From positions 1 through 20,809 of IMG/VR virus record IMGVR_UViG_3300049825_000693: DNA of 20,809 nucleotides. One strand, written 5' to 3'. The position numbers were made by a program, and so were the translations under genes. Below, in pieces: positions 2,808 through 20,586 of the stretch (the first letter of the stretch is position 1; each line of letters opens with the position of its first letter). The notes below the pieces were generated by a model. The model was not told where the DNA came from. It searched no databases and saw only the letters and a list, made by a program, of their open reading frames with translations. This DNA comes from a virus.

Positions 2808-3050
2808 CTAGGGCCGGCCTTCGGGTTGCACCTCAGCAATCGCGACGGGACGATCCGCACTGACGCGCATCGGGTAGGCCACCTCCGCCTCGAGACGAAA
2901 GTCTACCCCGTAATCCACGGTCGTGAGGAGGCTGCTCATCTGCCCCCAGGCGGGAGGCGAGACGGTGGTGGTCTGGGCGGCCCAGGTTTTCGAGGTCGGG
3001 GCCTGCGCGGCCCAGGTCCCGGTCGACGCACCGAGGGTCTGCCAGGTCAT
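2808..3050 (-). CDS. Small hypothetical virion-module protein (80 aa)
   Basis: An 80-aa ORF between the adaptor-like gene and the tailspike. Its ATG overlaps the upstream stop as ATGA, and its TAG is followed immediately by the tailspike ATG. This context, rather than homology, is the reason to believe in it. The N-terminal third is Trp/Thr/Ala-rich with WAAQ repeated twice (TGTWAAQAPTSKTWAAQ). The rest looks beta-stranded (YGVDFRLEAEVAYPMRV). There is no signal peptide or membrane segment. Position suggests a small adaptor or spike-attachment protein; I do not recognise a family. Confidence 0.6.
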   Translation of the reverse strand: MTWQTLGASTGTWAAQAPTSKTWAAQTTTVSPPAWGQMSSLLTTVDYGVDFRLEAEVAYPMRVSADRPVAIAEVQPEGRP

Positions 3051-3667
3051 CGAATGACCTGGACCCGCATCGCCAGTTTATCGCGCTGCCGAAGGGCCAT
3101 GTCGTTCGGGGTGCTCCCCATGTACGAGAGGTAGCGGGCCTTGTTCTGGGCCTCGCTCTCCCCATCGTCTCGAGCCGCCGCGACATAGGCCGCCGTGAGG
3201 AGTGCCACCCCAAAGTGCCAGCGTTCATCGAACACCGGGGTGGCGGTCGACGAGATCAAACTGGCCATCTTGGTGCCGTACCGGAGCTGAATCGAGTAGG
3301 CCGAATCCGGCGACGGCCACACTTCCATCCAGGTACTATAGAGCGCGTACTGTTCCGGGATGCCGAGCGCGGTCCCGCGACTATCGAAGGTGTGCGCCTC
3401 CATCCCCCGTAACTCGCGTCGGTTCCCGGTCGCGGAGAGATTCGAAATCTGGATTGGGTAGGCGAAGTTCGACGGCAGGGCGAGCCGGTTCTCGCCGCTC
3501 GTGGTACTCGAGACCGCCAGGGCCTCATCGGTGGCATACCGAATCCGGGTCGCCACTTCCTGATAGGCGATGTTGGCCCAGAACGAGGCCTCGGATAACG
3601 GCACGTCCGTCCGGCCCTTGACGAGGCTCGTGGCCGTCGAACAGAGTTGGGTGAGGTTTAGTTCCAT
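3047..3667 (-). CDS. Putative head-tail adaptor/connector protein
   Basis: A 206-aa protein when started at the ATG at 3667 (MELNLTQLC). The frame is open for another 25 codons, but those residues read as antisense noise and lie inside the upstream gene. The N-terminal half is helical (FWANIAYQEVATRIRY). Then come a beta segment containing EVWPSPDSAYSIQLRYGTK and a C-terminal helical part (FDERWHFGVALLTAAYVAAARDD). The P-x-PDSAY-x-hydrophobic-x-RY motif followed by a DERWH helix is typical of phage adaptor proteins of the SU10/P22 gp4-like kind, as I remember them, which sit below the portal. The start overlaps the upstream stop by 10 bases, and its own stop overlaps the next gene as ATGA. 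Confidence 0.6.
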   Translation of the reverse strand: MELNLTQLCSTATSLVKGRTDVPLSEASFWANIAYQEVATRIRYATDEALAVSSTTSGENRLALPSNFAYPIQISNLSATGNRRELRGMEAHTFDSRGTALGIPEQYALYSTWMEVWPSPDSAYSIQLRYGTKMASLISSTATPVFDERWHFGVALLTAAYVAAARDDGESEAQNKARYLSYMGSTPNDMALRQRDKLAMRVQVIR

Positions 3668-4278
3668 CCTGCCCCCCGCTGTGCCAGGTACATCTGTCCA
3701 ATCGCCAGGGCAGTCATGAGGTGCCAGAGCGCATGGCCCCACACCCCCACCAGCGGACTCCGCCGGCGGTCAAGGTGCCACGCCACATACCCCACCGCAA
3801 AGAGTCCCCAGGCCGCCAGGACGCTCAGGGTCATCCCTCGCATTAGGGGACCCACCGACCCGAGGATCATCGCCGCCAGGATATGCCAATCGGCCTGCAT
3901 CCAGCGTTGGTGGCCATAGAAGGCAATCCCGGCCCCGGCCCCCACCAGGATCGCCCAGGAGACCCAAGGCACGGTCGGGAGGAACCCGTGGGCGATGATC
4001 GCCCCACAGACCGCATACATCCCCACCCAGTCGAGCCGGTTGGCGAGGCGGGTCTTCTGGGCGTGATAGAGCGCGCTTCCGGTGGCTAAGACCCAGAGCG
4101 CCACCGCGAGGGCGGCGCTCGAGGCGTCCTGGAACCGCCACGCACAATACGTCCCGACCGCGGCATACCCGAGATTCGAGATGGTATTGCGGGGACCGAT
4201 CATCCCACGGCAGGCGTAGTTGAGTCGGTCCTCAGACCAACCGCCCCGCGCCCGCCGCCGCGCACACGGTTCTTCCAT
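3658..4278 (-). CDS. Ceramidase-like (CREST superfamily) seven-helix membrane hydrolase
   Basis: A 206-aa integral membrane protein with about seven hydrophobic segments (roughly residues 32-50, 53-70, 84-103, 105-121, 131-147, 150-167, 179-198). The metal-hydrolase signature of alkaline ceramidases and related CREST proteins is complete: S68-x3-H72 (GSALYHA), D83 eleven residues after H72 (LDWVGMY), and H182-x3-H186 (WGHALWH) in the last helix. The spacings match Ser77/His81/Asp92/His217/His221 of human ACER3 as I remember them. The N-terminal segment W14-x-E16 and the NTxSN at 31-35 also resemble the family; the calcium-site residues are only partly matched. Family members hydrolyse membrane lipids or act as receptors in this fold, and the substrate here is unknown. 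It lies between a small Ig-like gene (one base gap) and the adaptor-like gene (10-base overlap), so it is co-expressed with virion genes. The start has no clear ribosome site and is probably coupled. Confidence 0.75.
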   Translation of the reverse strand: MEEPCARRRARGGWSEDRLNYACRGMIGPRNTISNLGYAAVGTYCAWRFQDASSAALAVALWVLATGSALYHAQKTRLANRLDWVGMYAVCGAIIAHGFLPTVPWVSWAILVGAGAGIAFYGHQRWMQADWHILAAMILGSVGPLMRGMTLSVLAAWGLFAVGYVAWHLDRRRSPLVGVWGHALWHLMTALAIGQMYLAQRGAGWN

Positions 4279-4279
4279 G

Positions 4280-4615
4280 TTACGCCGACACGGTCACATC
4301 CACCTGGACCGGGGCGGCGGTCGGACGGGCGAGGACCGCGATATCAATCACGTTCCCGCTCGCGGTCGCCTGGACCACGGCCGGATCGCTGACCACCACG
4401 TCCGTAACCACCGGGGTATCCGGGAGAGTGGCGCCGGTACCGTCGACCCAGGACAGGGTGACGCTTTTGGGGCCATCATCGCCGACCGGAAAGGCGAGAC
4501 TCGCCGGGGACGCCACCAGGGTGAACGGCCCCACATGGGACGGCTCAATGGTGATCGCGATGACGACACGGCCGGGACCAAAAACAGGAACAGAGAGCAC
4601 CGTCGGAGGAGTCAT
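4280..4615 (-). CDS. Small Ig-like beta-sandwich protein (111 aa)
   Basis: A 111-aa protein that is almost all beta-strand. The order of short strands, with SVTLSWVDGTG, then VVSDPAVVQAT and VQVDVTVSA at the end, resembles a single bacterial Ig-like (BIG_2-type) domain, the same kind of fold as in the adhesin at 7500-8972. There is no signal peptide or membrane segment. An AAGAAAG sequence lies a few bases upstream of the ATG at 4615. The gene is one base from the membrane-hydrolase gene. A decoration or spike-base role is plausible; the family assignment is tentative. Confidence 0.5.
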   Translation of the reverse strand: MTPPTVLSVPVFGPGRVVIAITIEPSHVGPFTLVASPASLAFPVGDDGPKSVTLSWVDGTGATLPDTPVVTDVVVSDPAVVQATASGNVIDIAVLARPTAAPVQVDVTVSA

Positions 4616-9722: not shown

Positions 9723-10637
9723 TCAACCTCCCGACGTGCCCCAGAAGCCACGCCATTCGTTGTGGTAGACCACGAAGCCCTGGACGAGCTTCCGCTTGAT
9801 GACTTCGGCATCGAAATCCTCATCCATGCCGTTGCGGGGCCGCTCTTCCCAGACAAAGTGCGCGCCATGCTTGTCGCCCTGGAGGAACCACGCATCGTTG
9901 TCGGTCTTGTAGTGGGATACCATGAACGAGAGACCCTCTTCCTTGAGGGCGTTGATCTCGTTGTTGGCGGTGCCGGGCTTGTACTCCGAGCCGAGGAGTT
10001 CGCGGGCCGTGAACTTGTCTTCCGGCGAGATGATGAGCAACTTCGGGCGAATCATGGACGGACGACCGCGGTCATCCTTCCAGTTCTCGAAGTCGATCAA
10101 CGCCTGCTGGAGTGCCGTCACGCCGAGATCGGCGTCGGTCGACGGACGGTTCCGCTGGGTCGCGCCCCCATCCAGCCGCGTGTGCGCGGTCGAGAAGAGC
10201 TGCAGCCCATCGAAGCCGGTTGCCGAGTACCCATCGGCATTGGTGGTGCCGAAGCCGTTGTTCATGACCAGCGCCGCGACGGTTTCTTGCCCGTCGACCG
10301 CACTCTTCATGAGCGAGCCTTCGATCTTGTCGAACATGCCGTACAGCTCGTGCTTCTTGGCCTCGTCGGTGATCTTGTAGCCCAAGGCGAACCGGACAGG
10401 CTGGGCCTGCTTGGTGACCTCGCCGATCGGGTCGTCGTACTGAATGTTGGCCCCTTCTGCCTTGTACCGGAGTGACCCGAAATCGGTCATCTTGTAGTCG
10501 GTGATGGTAGCCTTCTGGGTGGACTTGACGTTCAGGTACCGGCTGAACTCGAGGGGGTACTGAGGGTAAACCTCGTACCAGATCTCGGACAGCTTCGGTT
10601 CCAAGAGCGTCAGAAATTGCGACCGTGAAATGGTCAT
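9723..10637 (-). CDS. Major capsid protein (HK97-fold, Mu gpT-like type)
   Basis: A 304-aa protein. An N-terminal arm (MTISRSQFLTLLEPKLSEIW) is followed by a core with the order ITDEAKKHELYG, DGLQLFSTAHTRLDGG, ELLGSEYKPGT with NNEINALK, MVSHYKTDNDAWFL and a C-terminal WRGFWG. The FSTAHTRLDGG and SEYKPGT/NNEIN blocks are, in my recollection, characteristic of capsid proteins in the Mu gpT-like or related HK97-fold groups. The ribosome site is strong (AAGGAG seven bases before the ATG), as expected for the most abundant virion protein. The gene follows the decoration-like gene by 12 bases, and a separate probable scaffold lies upstream. Length is normal for the fold. Confidence 0.85.
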   Translation of the reverse strand: MTISRSQFLTLLEPKLSEIWYEVYPQYPLEFSRYLNVKSTQKATITDYKMTDFGSLRYKAEGANIQYDDPIGEVTKQAQPVRFALGYKITDEAKKHELYGMFDKIEGSLMKSAVDGQETVAALVMNNGFGTTNADGYSATGFDGLQLFSTAHTRLDGGATQRNRPSTDADLGVTALQQALIDFENWKDDRGRPSMIRPKLLIISPEDKFTARELLGSEYKPGTANNEINALKEEGLSFMVSHYKTDNDAWFLQGDKHGAHFVWEERPRNGMDEDFDAEVIKRKLVQGFVVYHNEWRGFWGTSGG

Positions 10638-12510: not shown

Positions 12511-12817
12511 GGGTAGCCTGTTCCAAGCGGACGTGCATCGCCTCCAGCTCATCCGGAAGCGCGGCGGCTCGCCGCAACCCGGCAAGCAGCCCTATTTGTT
12601 TCAGATACTCATCGTGGGGCATCCCATGGAGGAGCCGTTCAGCCTCCGAATGCCAGACCCATTCCAGCGCCTTGAGGTACTTGCCCCATCCCGGATGGGT
12701 CTGGCATGCCCTGAGCGTTGGGATCTCCTCCGCCATCAGGCCCGCCAGGGGCTTGTCCGGGTCCAGCTTGGGGCGGCGGAACTTCGGGACTAATCGCATC
12801 AGGATCTCGGAAATCAT
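12380..12817 (-). CDS. Small charged helical protein overlapping portal and scaffold genes
   Basis: The best start is the ATG at 12817 (MISEILMRLV), preceded by GGAG four bases away, which gives 145 aa. It is in a different frame from both neighbours: the first 179 bases lie inside the 3' end of the portal gene, the last 131 inside the scaffold gene, and only about 128 bases are unique. Residues 30-100 look like a real helical protein (HPGWGKYLKALEWVWHSEAE, HDEYLKQIGLLAGLRRA, ALPDELEAMHVRLEQ) and resemble a small protein often encoded after phage portals. The last 30 residues (GAEGVEGPGHRPEG) look like an alternative reading of the proline-rich scaffold start. An internal ATG at 12736 is another possible start. 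Confidence 0.5.
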   Translation of the reverse strand: MISEILMRLVPKFRRPKLDPDKPLAGLMAEEIPTLRACQTHPGWGKYLKALEWVWHSEAERLLHGMPHDEYLKQIGLLAGLRRAAALPDELEAMHVRLEQATHERSESARTARSAATSRFFGTPWWSGAEGVEGPGHRPEGVGPR

Positions 12818-14636
12818 ATTGCTCCAACAGGCGGCGATAGAGTTTGCTTTGGCCATCAGCCAGATCGAGCGCAATCGTTCCAATCGGGGTGCCTTGCATC
12901 TGAATCCCGGCCTGGACGAGCTGCAAGAACTGCGGGGCCAACTGCCCATGGAGGGCCAAAAGGCCCTGGAGGTTCTGTTTCTCGAGTTCCTTGTTCGCGG
13001 TCCCCGAGACGGCGTTGATACTGACGCCGAGCCCCATTTCGGCGGATTCTGCCGGGGTCGCGAGCTTCTCGGCCACCATCTGGCCTTCGGGGAGCCCGAG
13101 TGTCTCCGTGGCGATTTGCAACCACTGCACCCCCTCGATATCCATCGGGGAGGTGGCGTACTGCTGGAGATACTGGATCATCCGAAGGCCCAGAACCCCC
13201 AGGCCGGAGTAGCGCATATCGCGTATGGTTAAGTCAGGGCGACGCTTGCCTTCGGCGAGGAGGTTCTGGACGGTGGAGGCGGGGGTGCGGCTCGGGAGGG
13301 ACTGGAGGTTGCCCAATTGGAGGTCGGAGACCGAAGTCCGCCGTTCGCCCACCGCCTGGACAAACTGAATCAGTTGCGGCAACGAGGGATAGATCTCCCC
13401 CATCTGCCACGCCTTGAAGTCCTCATTCACGTTCCCCGACACCAGCTTGACCGCCCCCGGGAAGATGGGCTCCCCTGGGGCAATGTTCGAGCCTTCGCGC
13501 GCGACGATCATCCGGCTGTTGGCCAACATGACATTGTCGTGCTGGAAGTTGAACAAGTCGCTCACCATCGTCTGGAACACTTCCTTTTGTTCACACACCC
13601 CAATCCCATAGAACCCATCGCCCGGGAAGTAGCGCACTACTTCAAACGGGCGCTGGCCATGATGATAGGGGTTCAAGATCGGGCGGAGCACGGTCCGAGT
13701 CGGACGATGGAACCAGACAATCACATCGTCTTCGCTGTCCCCGTTAACCGCGAACCGGGCATGCACCTCATACAGTTCGATGTCGCGCACGCGGGTGGGC
13801 GCTCCGCCCGGGGTCCTGGTACTCAACACTCCGGTGTCCCGATCAAATTGGGCCGGCGTCCCACCCCAGGTCCGCTTCTCGTAATCGAGATTCGAGACGG
13901 TCCGCTGGTACTCGGTCTGGGATTGCTCTTCCCAGAGGAGGACTCGGGCAATGTCGTCTTCACTGACTTCGGGATAGAGTGGGACCCAGCTATTGGCCAT
14001 CGACCGAAACCGTTCGATCGGCATCCGAATCCGGTGCGCGATCCACGGCGCCCCACCCGGGACATCGGCTTGGTGTTCAATCGCGGTCGGGGGAAGGATG
14101 AAGTCAGTCAGGGGGATGTGATCCACAAAGGGGCGGGAAACCCGCTTCTGGACCTTCTCCCAGCGCCCCATCTCACTGTACCGATGCACGGGACGGGTCT
14201 CGTAGTGCCACCCGTGCTTATACACCCCGGTCCCCAACTTGACCATCTCGAGGATGACCCGTTTGTTGACCTGGTACATGTGCAGGACAGACTTGTCGAG
14301 AAACGTCAGGAAATCTTGGAGGGGCTTGGCCGAGGGTTCCCACCGCTCGTTCAGGGCGGACACACTCCAGAGGTCGTCCGTGGCGTGGAGGGTCTGCATG
14401 AACGAGGCATAGAGTTGGTCGACATCAATCGCCGTGAGGGGCATCACCACGGCGGACGCCCCCTCGAAGGGGTGCTGTTTGAGGGGTTGCCGGGCGGCGG
14501 GTCGATACTGGATCAACCATTCTCGCCATTGCCGCTCGAGCCCCATCCGGGCCGCTAGGGTGTTGGTGAGTTCGGCGTCGATCCACGCCAGGAACCGGTC
14601 GCGGCGGCCAGGGCCCCATTGAATGGCATCAGTCAT
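12639..14636 (-). CDS. Portal protein
   Basis: A 665-aa protein that would form the dodecameric DNA-entry ring at the capsid vertex. Features include LERQWREWLIQYRPAARQPL, LYASFMQTLHATDDLWSV (helical wing) and VKLGTGVYKHGWHYE, a Gly-Val-Tyr-x-x-Gly segment frequent in portals. The aspartate/asparagine-rich LFNFQHDNVMLANSRM fits the stem region, and QAVGERRTSVSDLQLGN precedes the clip. The last 55 residues are a Pro/Gly/Gln tail (GQAPGGPDGGGDPNAQG). Length and order fit portals of the SU10/P22-like type. The start overlaps the upstream stop by 8 bases. The Pro/Gly tail is encoded where the overlapping small gene is also read, which may explain its low-complexity composition. Confidence 0.85.
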   Translation of the reverse strand: MTDAIQWGPGRRDRFLAWIDAELTNTLAARMGLERQWREWLIQYRPAARQPLKQHPFEGASAVVMPLTAIDVDQLYASFMQTLHATDDLWSVSALNERWEPSAKPLQDFLTFLDKSVLHMYQVNKRVILEMVKLGTGVYKHGWHYETRPVHRYSEMGRWEKVQKRVSRPFVDHIPLTDFILPPTAIEHQADVPGGAPWIAHRIRMPIERFRSMANSWVPLYPEVSEDDIARVLLWEEQSQTEYQRTVSNLDYEKRTWGGTPAQFDRDTGVLSTRTPGGAPTRVRDIELYEVHARFAVNGDSEDDVIVWFHRPTRTVLRPILNPYHHGQRPFEVVRYFPGDGFYGIGVCEQKEVFQTMVSDLFNFQHDNVMLANSRMIVAREGSNIAPGEPIFPGAVKLVSGNVNEDFKAWQMGEIYPSLPQLIQFVQAVGERRTSVSDLQLGNLQSLPSRTPASTVQNLLAEGKRRPDLTIRDMRYSGLGVLGLRMIQYLQQYATSPMDIEGVQWLQIATETLGLPEGQMVAEKLATPAESAEMGLGVSINAVSGTANKELEKQNLQGLLALHGQLAPQFLQLVQAGIQMQGTPIGTIALDLADGQSKLYRRLLEQYDFRDPDAISPEVPPPQAGPGQAPGGPDGGGDPNAQGMPDPSGMGQVPQGAGMGLAFGG

Positions 14637-15521: not shown

Positions 15522-17237
15522 TCAATTCCGTTGAATAGTCAAACCACGTCGGCGGTAGTAGGCATCGCGTTCCGCCTGCTGCCGTTGGGCAATGGAGCGG
15601 GGGCCCGCGAGACTCGCCCGTTTCCACAATTTAGGGCCATACGCCAGGGCATCCAAGAGGTCGTTCCGCCGGCCCCGCGGGAAGGTCCGATACTGTTCCC
15701 GGAACTCGGTGAACTCGGCCCCGCGGCCGACATAGACCTGGCCCCGCTGGAAATAGGGCTCGAGCACCAGAATCCGCTGCTCTTTCTGGACGCTCTCGGG
15801 CTTCACGGCCTCAAAAGATAACTCCATCCCCCGATCTTTGGCAGCCCGGCGCAAGAGGTCGAGGAACGCGGCCTGTTGGGCGGCCACTTCGACCCCGATC
15901 CGGCGCACCTTGTAGCGGGTCGCCAGGGTCAGAATCCGTTGCATCACCTCGGTATAGGTGACCCGTTCGGACCAGGCCTCGAGGATCAAGTGGTCAAGCT
16001 GGGGGGTGGTCCCCGTGACCAAGACACTCCCACGGACCCGATCCCCACCCCGGGTCGCGGCAAACCCGCCGGGATCGACGAGCATCACGAGATCGAGGTC
16101 CTGGAGGCCGTAGATCACCGGTTTCCCCTCCAATGTGTTCACCCGCACCGTCCGCTCATCCAACCAGTCGAAGTACCGCAACCAGGCGTCTTTGAAGGTG
16201 GCGGTGATCTCGTCCGAGGGCTGGTTCTGGTAGTTCGCGGCAAAGAGGACGGGGTCGGCGAGGCGGAGCTTGGCGAGGGACTCGAGCGAATAGTCCGGAT
16301 TTTCCGGCCAGATGCTCTTCCCGTCCTCGATCGCGCTCCGCCGGAAGGTGGCGACATCCCCGCGGCGGCGGAGGACGATCCGCTGGGATGAGGCATCCGG
16401 CAACTTCTGCACCACCACCCACTGCCGCTCGTCTTCCCCGTACCCGAACGCCTCGTCGATGTATTCGTAGCTGTCTCCCGCGAACCAACGCGTCCCAATA
16501 AAAAGGATTTCAGGTCGCGGGAGGGCCCAGGGGTTCAAAAGGGGCTTGAGCTGCACAATCCAGCGGTTGGTGCGGCCCGTGATATCGGCATTTCCCGAGC
16601 GCGCATTCTCGGCCGCTTCCCGGGACAGCATATCGTCGACCACAATCACATCCGGGTGCATGCCTGTCACGGTCCCGCCCACGCCGATACACATGACGGT
16701 CGGTTCGCGCCGGGCCGTGGTGCGCTGGACCACGATTTTATCGGTGGCCCAGGTGGTTTTGGCGAAGTCGGGGATGATCTCGGGGAATAACTCTTGGAGG
16801 AGTTGGTTGGTCTGAAACTCTTGTTTGATGGCCCCGAGAAAGGCGATACAGTTCTCGAGGCGTTCGTTACAGATCAGGATGGCGACGTTTGGGTCTTGGA
16901 GGATGCGTTGGATGGTGCGGGCCTGCGTCCCCATCGTGCTTTTCCCGACGCCGCGCGGGGCCTCCGCTTTCTTGATTGGGGCTTCGTCGATCTCTTTGAT
17001 CCCGGTCGTGCCTTCGAGGAACCGACAGAGGAGGCCGTGGCAGCCCGGGGTCATGTGGACCTTATCCCCGTACCCGAGCACGACCCCTGCGAACCAGTAG
17101 AGATCGGTTTGGCACCGCTTGCGATACGCCTCCCAGTCCGCGTCACCGCGCACGAAGCTTAGGATCGGGGACTGCGTCAGAAGCCCACCATGCGGAACCC
17201 GGGATACCGACGACAGAGGTCTTCGTGGGTTGACCAC
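15522..17237 (-). CDS. terL: Terminase large subunit (TerL)
   Basis: The DNA-packaging motor and headful/cos nuclease. Residues are counted from the GTG at 17237 (571 aa). Walker A is PRGVGKS at 94-100. Walker B is VIVVDD at 197-202 with the catalytic acidic pair. GTRW at 248-251 is a coupling-type motif. The nuclease aspartates are D388 (LVMLVDPGG), E450 (RRIGVEVAA) and D529 (NDLLDALAY). All motifs needed for ATPase and nuclease activity are present. The start is uncertain: the GTG at 17237 overlaps the preceding small gene by 61 bases, and a later GTG at 17153 (FVRGD) is an alternative. Packaging specificity and terminus type cannot be told from the sequence. Confidence 0.9.
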   Translation of the reverse strand: MVNPRRPLSSVSRVPHGGLLTQSPILSFVRGDADWEAYRKRCQTDLYWFAGVVLGYGDKVHMTPGCHGLLCRFLEGTTGIKEIDEAPIKKAEAPRGVGKSTMGTQARTIQRILQDPNVAILICNERLENCIAFLGAIKQEFQTNQLLQELFPEIIPDFAKTTWATDKIVVQRTTARREPTVMCIGVGGTVTGMHPDVIVVDDMLSREAAENARSGNADITGRTNRWIVQLKPLLNPWALPRPEILFIGTRWFAGDSYEYIDEAFGYGEDERQWVVVQKLPDASSQRIVLRRRGDVATFRRSAIEDGKSIWPENPDYSLESLAKLRLADPVLFAANYQNQPSDEITATFKDAWLRYFDWLDERTVRVNTLEGKPVIYGLQDLDLVMLVDPGGFAATRGGDRVRGSVLVTGTTPQLDHLILEAWSERVTYTEVMQRILTLATRYKVRRIGVEVAAQQAAFLDLLRRAAKDRGMELSFEAVKPESVQKEQRILVLEPYFQRGQVYVGRGAEFTEFREQYRTFPRGRRNDLLDALAYGPKLWKRASLAGPRSIAQRQQAERDAYYRRRGLTIQRN

Positions 17238-17803: not shown

Positions 17804-17982
17804 GGACGTTTCCACGCGACACCCGTTGTCCTCCCAATCTGCTCACCGAGCGAGGCGATCATCCAGGTTTGTCCGCCGATCCCGGCCGCGAAGTGAGAAT
17901 AGAGATTTCCCTCCGCCATCCCCGAAAACCATGGGACCTGGACGGAGAGGAGAATTTCGAGGTCGTAGATTTGTGGGGTCAT
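17800..17982 (-). CDS. MTPxI-family small protein, copy A (60 aa)
   Basis: Starts MTPQIYDLEILLSVQVPWFS and ends WKRP. The first eight residues are identical to those of the protein at 18485-18646 and close to the other two copies in this window, while the rest diverges. There is a short hydrophobic middle (QTWMIASLG). The ATG is three bases after the GroES-like stop, with AAGGG upstream. I do not recognise the family outside this genome. Confidence 0.55.
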   Translation of the reverse strand: MTPQIYDLEILLSVQVPWFSGMAEGNLYSHFAAGIGGQTWMIASLGEQIGRTTGVAWKRP

Positions 17983-17985
17983 GGG

Positions 17986-18484: not shown

Positions 18485-18646
18485 TCATCGGGCGTGAAGA
18501 TCCCACAGTACCGAATCCCGCAACTCCTCCCGGGCCCCTGCCACCGCATCCCAGATAGGGCACCCCACAAGGTGGATTGTGTGGAGGATGAGTCCGGAAG
18601 GGGAACCCCGATGGCAGGGAGAGAGATCGTAGATCTGTGGGGTCAT
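18485..18646 (-). CDS. MTPxI-family small protein, copy B (53 aa)
   Basis: Starts MTPQIYDLSPCHRGSPSGLI, sharing the first eight residues with copy A. Residues 31-38 (IWDAVAGA) resemble VWDAVNTV of copy C, and DSVLWDLHAR ends it. The ATG overlaps the stop of copy C as ATGA, so the two are probably coupled. Start chosen by alignment with the paralogues; ten further codons upstream are open but lie in copy C. Function unknown. Confidence 0.55.
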   Translation of the reverse strand: MTPQIYDLSPCHRGSPSGLILHTIHLVGCPIWDAVAGAREELRDSVLWDLHAR

Positions 18647-18801
18647 GGGAGGTGAACCGTATTCACGGCGTCCCATACCAACTGCCGCGGCCCTTCCGCC
18701 CCTACCCCTTCTATCTCCCCCACAGCGCTCCAGTCAGAGGGGTCCCAGTCATGGGGCATACCATGATACCTGGGGTGGAGGGAGACGATCGCTGGGGTCA
18801 T
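18643..18801 (-). CDS. MTPxI-family small protein, copy C (52 aa)
   Basis: Starts MTPAIVSLHPRYHGMPHDWD and ends LVWDAVNTVHLP. It carries the family pattern MTPxIxxLxPxxxGxP and is more divergent than copies A and B at the start. Acidic and Trp-containing with no signal or membrane segment. The ATG overlaps the stop of the preceding probable small-terminase gene as ATGA. The frame is open much further upstream but that part is a shadow of that gene. Confidence 0.5.
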   Translation of the reverse strand: MTPAIVSLHPRYHGMPHDWDPSDWSAVGEIEGVGAEGPRQLVWDAVNTVHLP

Positions 18802-19352
18802 GAAGTGGTGATCTCGGCCGGGACTTCTTCGATCGCCGCAATCTCGATCGGGGAGAGGCTCGTGACGTGTTTCGCCGCGAACCCACCCGGGGCCCCGACC
18901 ACGATCTGAATGATCTGGGCTGAGGTCGCGGCATGTTCTTTCGGGAGCAACCGATCGAGGAGCGGGTTCGTGTACTTCACGAGGGTCTCCCACTTCTTGT
19001 TCACTCGGAGATCGTCGATCCCTTCGAAGTGCGCTTCGACCGCCGTCATCATCCGGCTCTCGGCAAACGCACGCGGGCGCGCCAAGACTTCCTCTTCGTA
19101 CTGCTGCACTGCGGCGAGAAAGGCGGGGTTCCGCAACAGTTTCTCGATCGGGGCCTTGCCGATATGGTTCCCGCCACAAACCGTGCTCGCGTAGGTTTGC
19201 ACTGCGGTCACATGCGGGCGCTCGGGTTGTCCCGCCCACCACACGGCCACGGCTTTCTGCCAGGGCCGCAAGGCGTCCCCGTCGCATTGCGCCGCCAGGG
19301 TTGCTTCACGCCGGAGCCGACTATATTTGTGCCGGTCGACTTCTTTTGCCAT
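18798..19352 (-). CDS. Probable terminase small subunit
   Basis: A 184-aa protein directly upstream of the packaging genes. The N-terminal half contains a probable helix-turn-helix region (PWQKAVAVWWAG, TAVQTYASTVCG, KAPIEKLLRNPAFLAAVQQY), which corresponds in order to the DNA-binding part of small terminases. It is followed by charged helices (SRMMTAVEAHFEGIDDLRVN and WETLVKYTNPLLDRLLPKE). The LLRNPAFLAAV and K-x-TxPLLDRLLPK blocks recall small-terminase-like proteins. AGGG lies five bases before the ATG. The assignment is by composition and position and the family is divergent. Confidence 0.55.
   Translation of the reverse strand: MAKEVDRHKYSRLRREATLAAQCDGDALRPWQKAVAVWWAGQPERPHVTAVQTYASTVCGGNHIGKAPIEKLLRNPAFLAAVQQYEEEVLARPRAFAESRMMTAVEAHFEGIDDLRVNKKWETLVKYTNPLLDRLLPKEHAATSAQIIQIVVGAPGGFAAKHVTSLSPIEIAAIEEVPAEITTS
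19301..19327 (+). promoter_or_regulatory. Weak candidate promoter for the epimerase gene
   Basis: TATATT (19322-19327, one mismatch to TATAAT) lies 38 bases before the plus-strand ATG in an otherwise GC-rich region. A poor TTGCTT stands 15 bases before it, in the -35 position. It lies in the antisense of the 5' end of the divergent gene. Only 12 bases separate the two genes, so any promoter must be inside that coding sequence. Weak evidence. Confidence 0.3.
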
Positions 19353-19364
19353 CGAGCCCTAGCC

Positions 19365-20390
19365 ATGTGGTGCGTGATTGTCGGGACCCGACCCGAATGC
19401 ATTAAGATGGCGCCCGTCGTGGCGGAAAGCAAGCGGGCCGGCCTCCCGGTGACGGTGTGGCATACCCAACAACATCGCGATCTCTGGCACGGGACCGGGC
19501 TCACTCCCGACGCCCTGCTCGACTGCGGGCTCGAGGGGCGGGACCCCTTGACCGACGGGCAACGGGTCGAGGACACCGTGCTCCGTGCCCTCAGCCCCGC
19601 GATCACCGGCCTGATCGTCCAAGGGGATACCCTGTCCGCGTTCGGCGGTGCGGGGGCCGCCTATGTCCAGCACTTGCCGCTCGTACATGTCGAGGCCGGG
19701 GTGCGGAGCGGGAACCTCGATCATCCCTGGCCCGAAGAGTTCTTCCGCCAGGCGATCGATACGTCCGCCACACTCCGCCTCTGTGCCACGGAGGCGAACC
19801 GCCAGCATCTCCTTCGCGAGAAGCTTGACGGGGTGGTGACCGGGAACAGTGGGGTCGACGCCTGCCTCCTCCGCCAGCGCCCCGTCCATCTCACCGACCG
19901 GCTCGAGCACGTTCTGATTACCCTCCACCGCCGCGAATCCTTCGGCGCGCCGATGCAGGCGATTGTCGAGGGACTCCTCCGGGTCGTGGTGAGCTGCCCT
20001 GAGATCACCTTTCAGTGGCCCCTGCACCCGAATCCCGCGCTCCAGGACGCGCTCCCAACGGTCGTCCCGCCGAACCTCCGGCTCGGCCCACCGCTCGCCT
20101 ACAGTACCTTCCTCACCAAACTGGCCCATGCCCAGGCTGTCCTCACCGACTCCGGTGGGGTCCAGGAAGACGCCGCGACCCTCGGAATCCCGGCTGTCAT
20201 TGCCCGCGAGGTCACCGATCGGCCCGAAAGCGTCGCCACGGGTCAGGCTGTGGTGGCGGGCCGGACGGCGGACGGGGTGGAGCGAGGGCTCTGGCGGGCG
20301 ATCGGGGGACACCTCGTCACGGAGCCGAGTGATGTGTTCGGGGAGCGGGGGGCCGCGGCGAAGATCGTGGCGGCAGTGCAGGGGATCTAG
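19365..20390 (+). CDS. wecB: UDP-N-acetylglucosamine 2-epimerase, non-hydrolysing (WecB-like)
   Basis: A 341-aa cytosolic enzyme that would convert UDP-GlcNAc to UDP-ManNAc. GTRPE is at residues 7-11, the QGDT aspartate is D88, HVEAGVRSG carries E110, PWPEE carries E124, and LHRRES carries H188. These correspond to the catalytic Asp95/Glu117/Glu131/His213 of E. coli WecB as I remember them. The UDP-binding LTDSGGVQEDA (260-270) and TDRPESV (284-290) are intact. It is about 35 residues shorter than E. coli WecB, so some loop is trimmed. The start matches the family N-terminus exactly, although the frame is open further upstream. No good ribosome site is seen. It is the only plus-strand gene in the window, so it looks like an inserted moron that could alter the host or virion glycan. 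Confidence 0.85.
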   Translation: MWCVIVGTRPECIKMAPVVAESKRAGLPVTVWHTQQHRDLWHGTGLTPDALLDCGLEGRDPLTDGQRVEDTVLRALSPAITGLIVQGDTLSAFGGAGAAYVQHLPLVHVEAGVRSGNLDHPWPEEFFRQAIDTSATLRLCATEANRQHLLREKLDGVVTGNSGVDACLLRQRPVHLTDRLEHVLITLHRRESFGAPMQAIVEGLLRVVVSCPEITFQWPLHPNPALQDALPTVVPPNLRLGPPLAYSTFLTKLAHAQAVLTDSGGVQEDAATLGIPAVIAREVTDRPESVATGQAVVAGRTADGVERGLWRAIGGHLVTEPSDVFGERGAAAKIVAAVQGI

Positions 20391-20586
20391 GCCCGAGGGA
20401 CCAGAGCGTTTCCCAATCCACCACGGTCGGGGCGATAGCCCAGTCCACGAGCCACCATGTATCTATTGTCGTCCTGTCCGTGACCACGTCCGCGCCATCT
20501 GGAAACGACGGGAACCCCTGATAATTGGGATAGAGATGGTAGATTTGTGGGGTCGTTCGCTCACCTCCGCCGTAGTTACGAACCAA
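20317..20586 (-). CDS. MTPxI-family protein, copy D, with altered start and extended C-terminus
   Basis: The frame opens at a TTG (20586), but the family start aligns at 20556, where an ACG stands in place of ATG (TTPQIYHLYPNYQGFPSFPD). A near-perfect GGAGG lies seven bases before that ACG. Residues from there to about the wecB stop codon (20390) give 56 aa, the length of the other copies. The next 23 residues (PALPPRSSPRPPAPR...) are the antisense of the wecB 3' end, and the stop is at 20317. This suggests the original stop was removed when the epimerase gene was placed here. It may be translated from TTG or ACG, or be a pseudogene. Confidence 0.45.
   Translation of the reverse strand: MVRNYGGGERTTPQIYHLYPNYQGFPSFPDGADVVTDRTTIDTWWLVDWAIAPTVVDWETLWSLGPRSPALPPRSSPRPPAPRTHHSAP

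Follow-up and report, generated by a model that had tools for sequence, protein, structure and literature searches.

Gene content and organization of the window

The window, that is, the whole stretch of DNA analyzed here (20,809 bases, IMG/VR record), carries on its minus strand one long late module that encodes, besides the proteins listed in Table 1, an Ig-domain protein, further large structural-looking proteins and a pectate-lyase-like tail protein. The portal, capsid, terminase and SU10-type adaptor genes identify the window as a fragment of the genome of an SU10-like podophage, with a terminase about 33% identical to its nearest counterpart among sequenced phages. No lysis gene was recognized in the window, which is a genome fragment.

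The head-tail operon of this phage includes a gene for a polytopic membrane protein of the CREST superfamily, which starts with an ATG at 4278 and ends with a stop codon at 3660-3658. The stop codon of a small upstream ORF is located one base ahead of this ATG (TAACATG), and the ATG of the adaptor gene (3667), preceded by a purine-rich site, lies within the 3' end of the CREST gene, resulting in a 10-nt overlap (3658-3667); this arrangement makes translational coupling likely. A preliminary description of the locus had an Ig-like gene and an adaptor-like gene on the two sides: the adaptor is a homolog of the SU10 family, but the Ig-like label is unsupported because the upstream ORF has no family match. 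By codon position, the CREST gene and the flanking genes are similar in GC content, and the CREST gene has the most hydrophobic windows among the 23 minus-strand genes tested. A scan for sigma-70 promoters yielded 3 weak sites, compared to 1.7 expected.

Table 1. Genes and sequence features of the window
Feature	Coordinates	Strand	Evidence or remark
SU10-type head-tail adaptor gene	3047..3667	-	Pfam SU10_adaptor 2.2e-13
CREST-superfamily 7-TM putative Zn-dependent lipid hydrolase gene	3658..4278	-	206 aa; homology, AF2 and Foldseek
H186 codon	3721..3723	-	equivalent to ACER3 Zn ligand H221 (PMC6303388)
H182 codon	3733..3735	-	equivalent to ACER3 Zn ligand H217 (PMC6303388)
D83 codon	4030..4032	-	equivalent to ACER3 D92, general acid/base (PMC6303388)
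H72 codon	4063..4065	-	equivalent to ACER3 Zn ligand H81 (PMC6303388)
S68 codon	4075..4077	-	equivalent to ACER3 S77, oxyanion stabilization (PMC9436119)
Residues 10-17, ARGGWSED	4228..4251	-	ARGGWxED kept in 4 phage members
Small upstream ORF	4280..4615	-	111 aa; no family match
Major capsid protein	9723..10637	-	Pfam Phage_capsid_4 1.5e-10
SU10-type portal protein	12639..14636	-	Pfam SU10_portal 1e-21; phrog_1216
Terminase large subunit	15522..17237	-	phrog_38 4.5e-67

Several other features of the window are worth recording. The minus strand at 172-1371 encodes a 399-residue protein whose repeat unit is about 45 residues long (ASNATLTNERVLTAGSGISFTDAGAGGALTITN) and which is likely a part of a tail fiber or spike. 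A UDP-N-acetylglucosamine 2-epimerase gene (18933-20390, plus strand; Pfam Epimerase_2, 1.7e-56), oriented against the packaging genes, probably starts near 19340 and is possibly involved in surface sugar modification. A 27-nt sequence is present in three copies that are 81-93% alike (17959-17985, 18623-18649 and 20533-20559); on the minus strand, two of these have ATGACCCCACAAATCTACGA-like starts and the third has ACGACCCC. The copies could be short ORFs that all begin with MTPQIYDL; the alternative is a non-coding repeat with a promoter or operator role.

Related proteins in viruses and bacteria

Relatives of the CREST protein were detected in six further contigs of uncultured viruses. The window protein shares 34-47% identity with those from contigs L029 (57 kb), L036 (7 kb), L037 (41 kb) and L064/L080 (39.5 kb); those from L060 and L061 are more distant (E values of 1.4e-14 and 1.6e-6, respectively, with the viral profile). 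The relatives in IMG/VR were recovered by alignments and a DNA motif only; exact-peptide searches of this database gave no match when the queries were the CREST, adaptor and portal proteins of the window by themselves. When 19 other genes of the window were compared to the contigs of the relatives, the sole match was a 57-residue Ig-like stretch in L037; thus, the CREST gene is common to otherwise unlike phages, and its active site persists among them at 34-47% protein identity.

The cellular relatives nearest to the phage proteins are bacterial "ceramidase domain-containing" proteins (PF05875) from Hymenobacter, Rudanella and Acidobacteriota, with others found in Rhodobacterales. Those from Hymenobacter, Rudanella and Acidobacteriota have the motif CEESLCGWxRQPxNTxSN...GSAFFHASET...SGHALWH; the bacterial proteins are probably the hypothetical groups 1 and 2 of the CREST superfamily (PMC3146951). 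Unlike them, the phage proteins have no CEES/CERT motif, and their PF05875 scores do not reach the cut-off. Maximum-likelihood analysis of 43 sequences separates all viral proteins from the rest by a branch with support of 99/97, although this grouping may be favored by the way in which the viral relatives were searched for, and the cellular rows L038, L040 and L094 are badly cut and long-branched. The sequence comparison thus suggests a single viral clade separate from every cellular relative found. The single viral clade, together with the neighbor-like GC content by codon position, argues against recent pick-up of a host gene.

In a genome of the Gemmatimonadota set, a CREST gene adjoins a YhhN-family gene (L038:1300-2061 and 2061-2714; Pfam 5e-50; lysoplasmalogenase family), which suggests a lipid-cleaving role for the cellular cousins of the phage proteins. 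Plasmid genes for ceramidase-domain proteins (L004, L005 and L010) adjoin efflux and metal-binding genes in Hymenobacter or a fatty acid desaturase gene in Paracoccus.

Evidence of CREST superfamily membership

In a tblastn search of 7.3 Gb, the window protein matched a "ceramidase domain-containing protein" from a plasmid of the cyanobacterium Planktothrix (E value of 7e-4, covering 68% of the query), and a scan of GTDB genomes yielded 15 relatives confirmed by tblastn, the best with an E value of 5e-8 relative to the candidate stretches. An HMM built from six plasmid-borne cellular proteins alone recognized the window protein (2.9e-10) and its L029 homolog (1.6e-10), whereas among 7,000 shuffled viral sequences no E value was better than 0.036; the scores of L060 (0.089) and L037 (0.24) were not significant, and L061 was not among the best matches listed. 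Conversely, when a profile of the seven viral proteins only was compared to all PDB sequences, human ACER3 was the best match (5.8e-5), and the viral SxxxH, D and HxxWH coincided with its active site in the alignment; for a mixed viral-cellular profile, the E value reached 4.8e-15. Taken with residue conservation and the predicted fold, these results support the earlier proposal of a metal-hydrolase-type protein of the CREST superfamily in a tailed-phage virion operon, and the membership itself is strongly supported.

A narrower assignment, to the alkaline ceramidase family, is not supported. The window protein scores 15.8 bits against PF05875 (E value of 0.0095; gathering cut-off of 32.5), the L029 and L037 homologs (19.9 and 14.8 bits) are likewise under the cut-off, and L036, L080 and L060 had no listed match in this search. 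Because of these scores and the lack of counterparts of the ACER3 Ca2+ ligands D19 and E33, the designation "ceramidase" in the strict sense is unsupported. The similarity to hemolysin III, of the hemolysin III/PAQR branch of the same superfamily, is weak and far under the curated cut-off of that family (TIGR01065, 12.5 vs 172.2 bits).

Active site and predicted structure

The window protein contains all the residues that had been noted in it, S68-x3-H72, D83 and H182-x3-H186, and their spacings are those found in human ACER3 (PDB 6g7o/6yxh): both proteins have seven transmembrane helices, predicted in the phage protein, with S-x3-H at the end of TM2, D exactly 11 residues past that histidine, H-x2-W-H at the start of TM7 (W185 aligns with ACER3 W220) and NTxSN near TM1. 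The two differ in that they are 16% identical, the phage TM6-TM7 loop is shorter, and the origin is a phage. The motif set occurs at these spacings in 67 of 200,000 composition-preserving shuffles of the window protein and is therefore only suggestive by itself; the doubt that it arose by chance is removed by homology, as seen with tblastn, the bacterial-only HMM and the viral-only profile, so that a chance motif can be dismissed on homology and shuffles combined.

In the seven-row viral alignment, S68, H72, D83, H182, W185 and H186 are invariant columns, in L061 only via a gap: this protein has H-x4-H and failed the strict motif test. Hence the full Zn, acid/base and oxyanion set is found in six of the seven viral members and is nearly complete in the seventh. 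Conservation of the five residues thus extends over viral and cellular homologs, the other exception being the cellular L014, with R in place of the first H. The Ca2+ loop of ACER3 (D19-W20-C-E22-x-N24, together with E33) is retained in part: by alignment, the phage protein keeps W14 and E16, and has G13 for D19 and G28 for E33. W14, present in all five closest phage members, is probably the counterpart of W20 in the DWCE of this loop, a residue that in ACER3 contacts the Zn ligands (PMC6303388).

An AlphaFold2 (AF2) model from a 20-sequence alignment (pLDDT 79, pTM 0.81) shows seven transmembrane helices in the CREST arrangement; a single-sequence model was poor (pLDDT 55) and was set aside. 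In the retained model, S68-x3-H72 lies at the end of TM2 (helix 52-74), D83 at the start of TM3 (77-99) and H182-x3-H186 at the start of TM7 (178-202), and these locations are those of the published CREST topology (PMC3146951). The comparison with the ACER3 structure suggested at the outset bore out the prediction: in a Foldseek search of PDB, ACER3, also the first match by sequence profile, ranked first (TM 0.69 by query length, probability 1.00, E value of 1.7e-3), followed by SID-1, Myomaker and AdipoR1, with GPCRs lower (TM <0.5). Clustering of the five residues at one metal site is implied only by this superposition of the model on ACER3. Each of the seven viral proteins has more lysine and arginine per residue toward the N-terminal side (14 of 80 residues vs 3 of 43 in the window protein) which, by the positive-inside rule, points to a cytoplasmic N-terminus and an active site at the cytoplasmic face. 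Very probably, then, the modeled protein adopts the CREST fold with seven transmembrane helices and the N-terminus in the cytoplasm, with H72, H182 and H186 holding Zn2+, D83 activating water and S68 stabilizing the oxyanion, all at the cytoplasmic face.

Among viral models (BFVD), the best matches were two giant-virus ceramidases (Pithovirus LCPAC001 and Marseillevirus LCMAC103; TMq 0.70-0.72) and a membrane protein of Emiliania huxleyi virus 86. All three are virus-encoded and have the same fold but, unlike the phage proteins, belong to viruses of eukaryotes without a known tie to tailed phages. The sole phage-named match among the first ten was a histidine kinase (TM 0.49), and no tailed-phage member was found in BFVD.

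Gene neighborhoods of the viral relatives

The phage CREST genes occupy diverse locations. In L029, three small genes (two with one transmembrane segment each) are followed by an Amidase_2 endolysin gene (Pfam 3e-15), the CREST gene, a gene whose product has an N-terminal transmembrane segment and is i-spanin-like by shape only, and a Gp80-type fiber gene. In L037, downstream of a tape measure gene, the order is CHAP-like endolysin (phrog_9589, lysis, 8.8e-12), CREST and a multi-transmembrane protein. In both phages, the CREST gene overlaps the gene on either side by 4 nt; such adjacency and coupling to an endolysin gene were not seen in the window, L036, L080, L060 or L061. In L036, connector and tail genes precede the CREST gene, and the tape measure gene follows it. 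In L080/L064, the CREST gene belongs to an accessory region, with a nucleotide phosphatase gene as its neighbor and a small terminase gene about 6 kb away. Thus, two of the five clear members are located in lysis cassettes and, with only five such members, the link to lysis is a lead supported by two independent cases rather than a rule.

A simple lipobox scan for o-spanin-like lipoproteins detected none in the late region of the window, in L036 or near the L029 CREST gene. Downstream of its lysis operon, L029 encodes a subtilase with a lipobox-like N-terminus (12644-14203; Peptidase_S8, 3.8e-44). A gene resembling sulfotransferases (IPKCGGTS motif; L060:10920-11495) adjoins the divergent viral CREST gene of L060.

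Possible functions of the phage CREST proteins

The metal, substrate, timing and role that we infer for the phage proteins can be combined in a scheme to which we give roughly even chances: a phage-specific CREST clade of polytopic inner-membrane metalloenzymes that would cleave lipids and be used late, at release. By analogy, Zn2+ would be bound by the three histidines, D83 would serve as the general acid/base, and an acyl amide or ester would be cleaved. The target is likely an acyl bond of a host membrane lipid, cleavage of which would yield a single-chain lipid and a fatty acid; the candidate substrates would be a sphingolipid, an N-acyl aminolipid or a phospholipid. In Rhodobacterales, where some of the cellular relatives occur, N-acyl amino acid lipids are a possible substrate. 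Against this scheme, hydrolase activity is not known for some members of the superfamily, such as Myomaker.

With regard to timing, we consider it plausible, at slightly less than even chances, that the phage CREST protein is produced late, together with structural or lysis proteins, and acts at release, where it would weaken the membrane or aid the holin, endolysin or outer-membrane steps. If a lipid hydrolase is active at lysis, its products in the inner membrane would be single-chain lipids along with fatty acids. Late expression is supported by the position of the gene in the late module of the window and by that in L036, just ahead of the tape measure gene. There is a precedent for a lipolytic enzyme in a lysis cassette, namely, LysB, the mycolylarabinogalactan esterase of mycobacteriophages, which aids release (PMC5707550). 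A more specific and rather doubtful proposal is that an intramembrane zinc lipid amidase is a dedicated lysis protein of some tailed phages that breaks host lipids from the cytoplasmic leaflet at endolysin release, in a membrane-destroying step distinct from those of holins and spanins, and belongs to a long-standing branch of the ceramidase superfamily that is confined to phages. LysB and the phage CREST protein differ in the kind of enzyme, the target and the host envelope.

Lysis was among the roles offered in the preliminary description, and it is favored by the 4-nt coupling of CREST genes to endolysin genes of different families in two unrelated phages; the remaining relatives are located elsewhere, with L080/L064 in an accessory region and L060 and L061 outside lysis operons. 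Furthermore, an active site facing the cytoplasm has no direct reach to the outer membrane, and L029 may itself encode a spanin. This variability of position, from virion operon to lysis operon to accessory region, is what would be expected of a moron or auxiliary gene, present in any operon of suitable expression, whose product edits host membrane lipids during infection, possibly changing membrane fluidity or the cell surface, excluding other phages or releasing fatty acids for the phage. The lipid-related neighbors of the cellular relatives, YhhN in L038 and the desaturase in L010, fit such an activity. Recurrent coupling to unrelated endolysins is unexpected for a free-floating moron, however, and a single phage clade apart from the cellular genes implies long residence in phages rather than repeated pick-up, so that the auxiliary role is a minority possibility.

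Two further interpretations appear improbable. The coupling to the adaptor gene in the window and the proximity to the tape measure gene in L036 could indicate a virion protein, packaged or ejected, that acts on the host inner membrane at DNA entry. Seven transmembrane helices require a membrane, though, and the particle of tailed phages has none; the homologs in lysis operons do not fit this role either. A non-enzymatic pore, that is, a holin-like or fusogenic protein on the CREST fold, comparable to hemolysin III or Myomaker, is suggested by the weak hemolysin III resemblance, the presence of Myomaker among the fold matches and the location of CREST genes beside endolysins. The catalytic set, complete in nearly all viral members, would however be superfluous in a pure pore, and both lysis operons already contain other small membrane genes.

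Implications

The CREST superfamily and ceramidase-like proteins of giant viruses were already known; the new part is the clade in tailed phages. The study that established the superfamily mentions no phage, and no tailed-phage member was found in the literature searched (open-licence only); in one paper on a Tenacibaculum phage that mentions a ceramidase, the gene is that of the host. A tblastn search of INPHARED (50,697 sequenced phages) with any of six viral proteins yielded no relative, and a search for prophage copies in 895 bacterial genomes from three phyla yielded cellular-type matches only. Present profile libraries miss the phage clade, with no PHROG family and no Pfam call over the cut-off.

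CREST enzymes have been studied mainly in eukaryotic lipid signaling, as ceramidases, adiponectin receptors, Per1 and SID-1, and the phage proteins are small members of a family with debated catalysis. With a phage branch whose active site is intact and which is found next to endolysins, lipid hydrolysis would join the known means by which phages open Gram-negative cells. This branch also bears directly on the spanin question, given that 91 of 677 phages of Gram-negative hosts (about 13%) have no recognizable spanin (PMC6139136).
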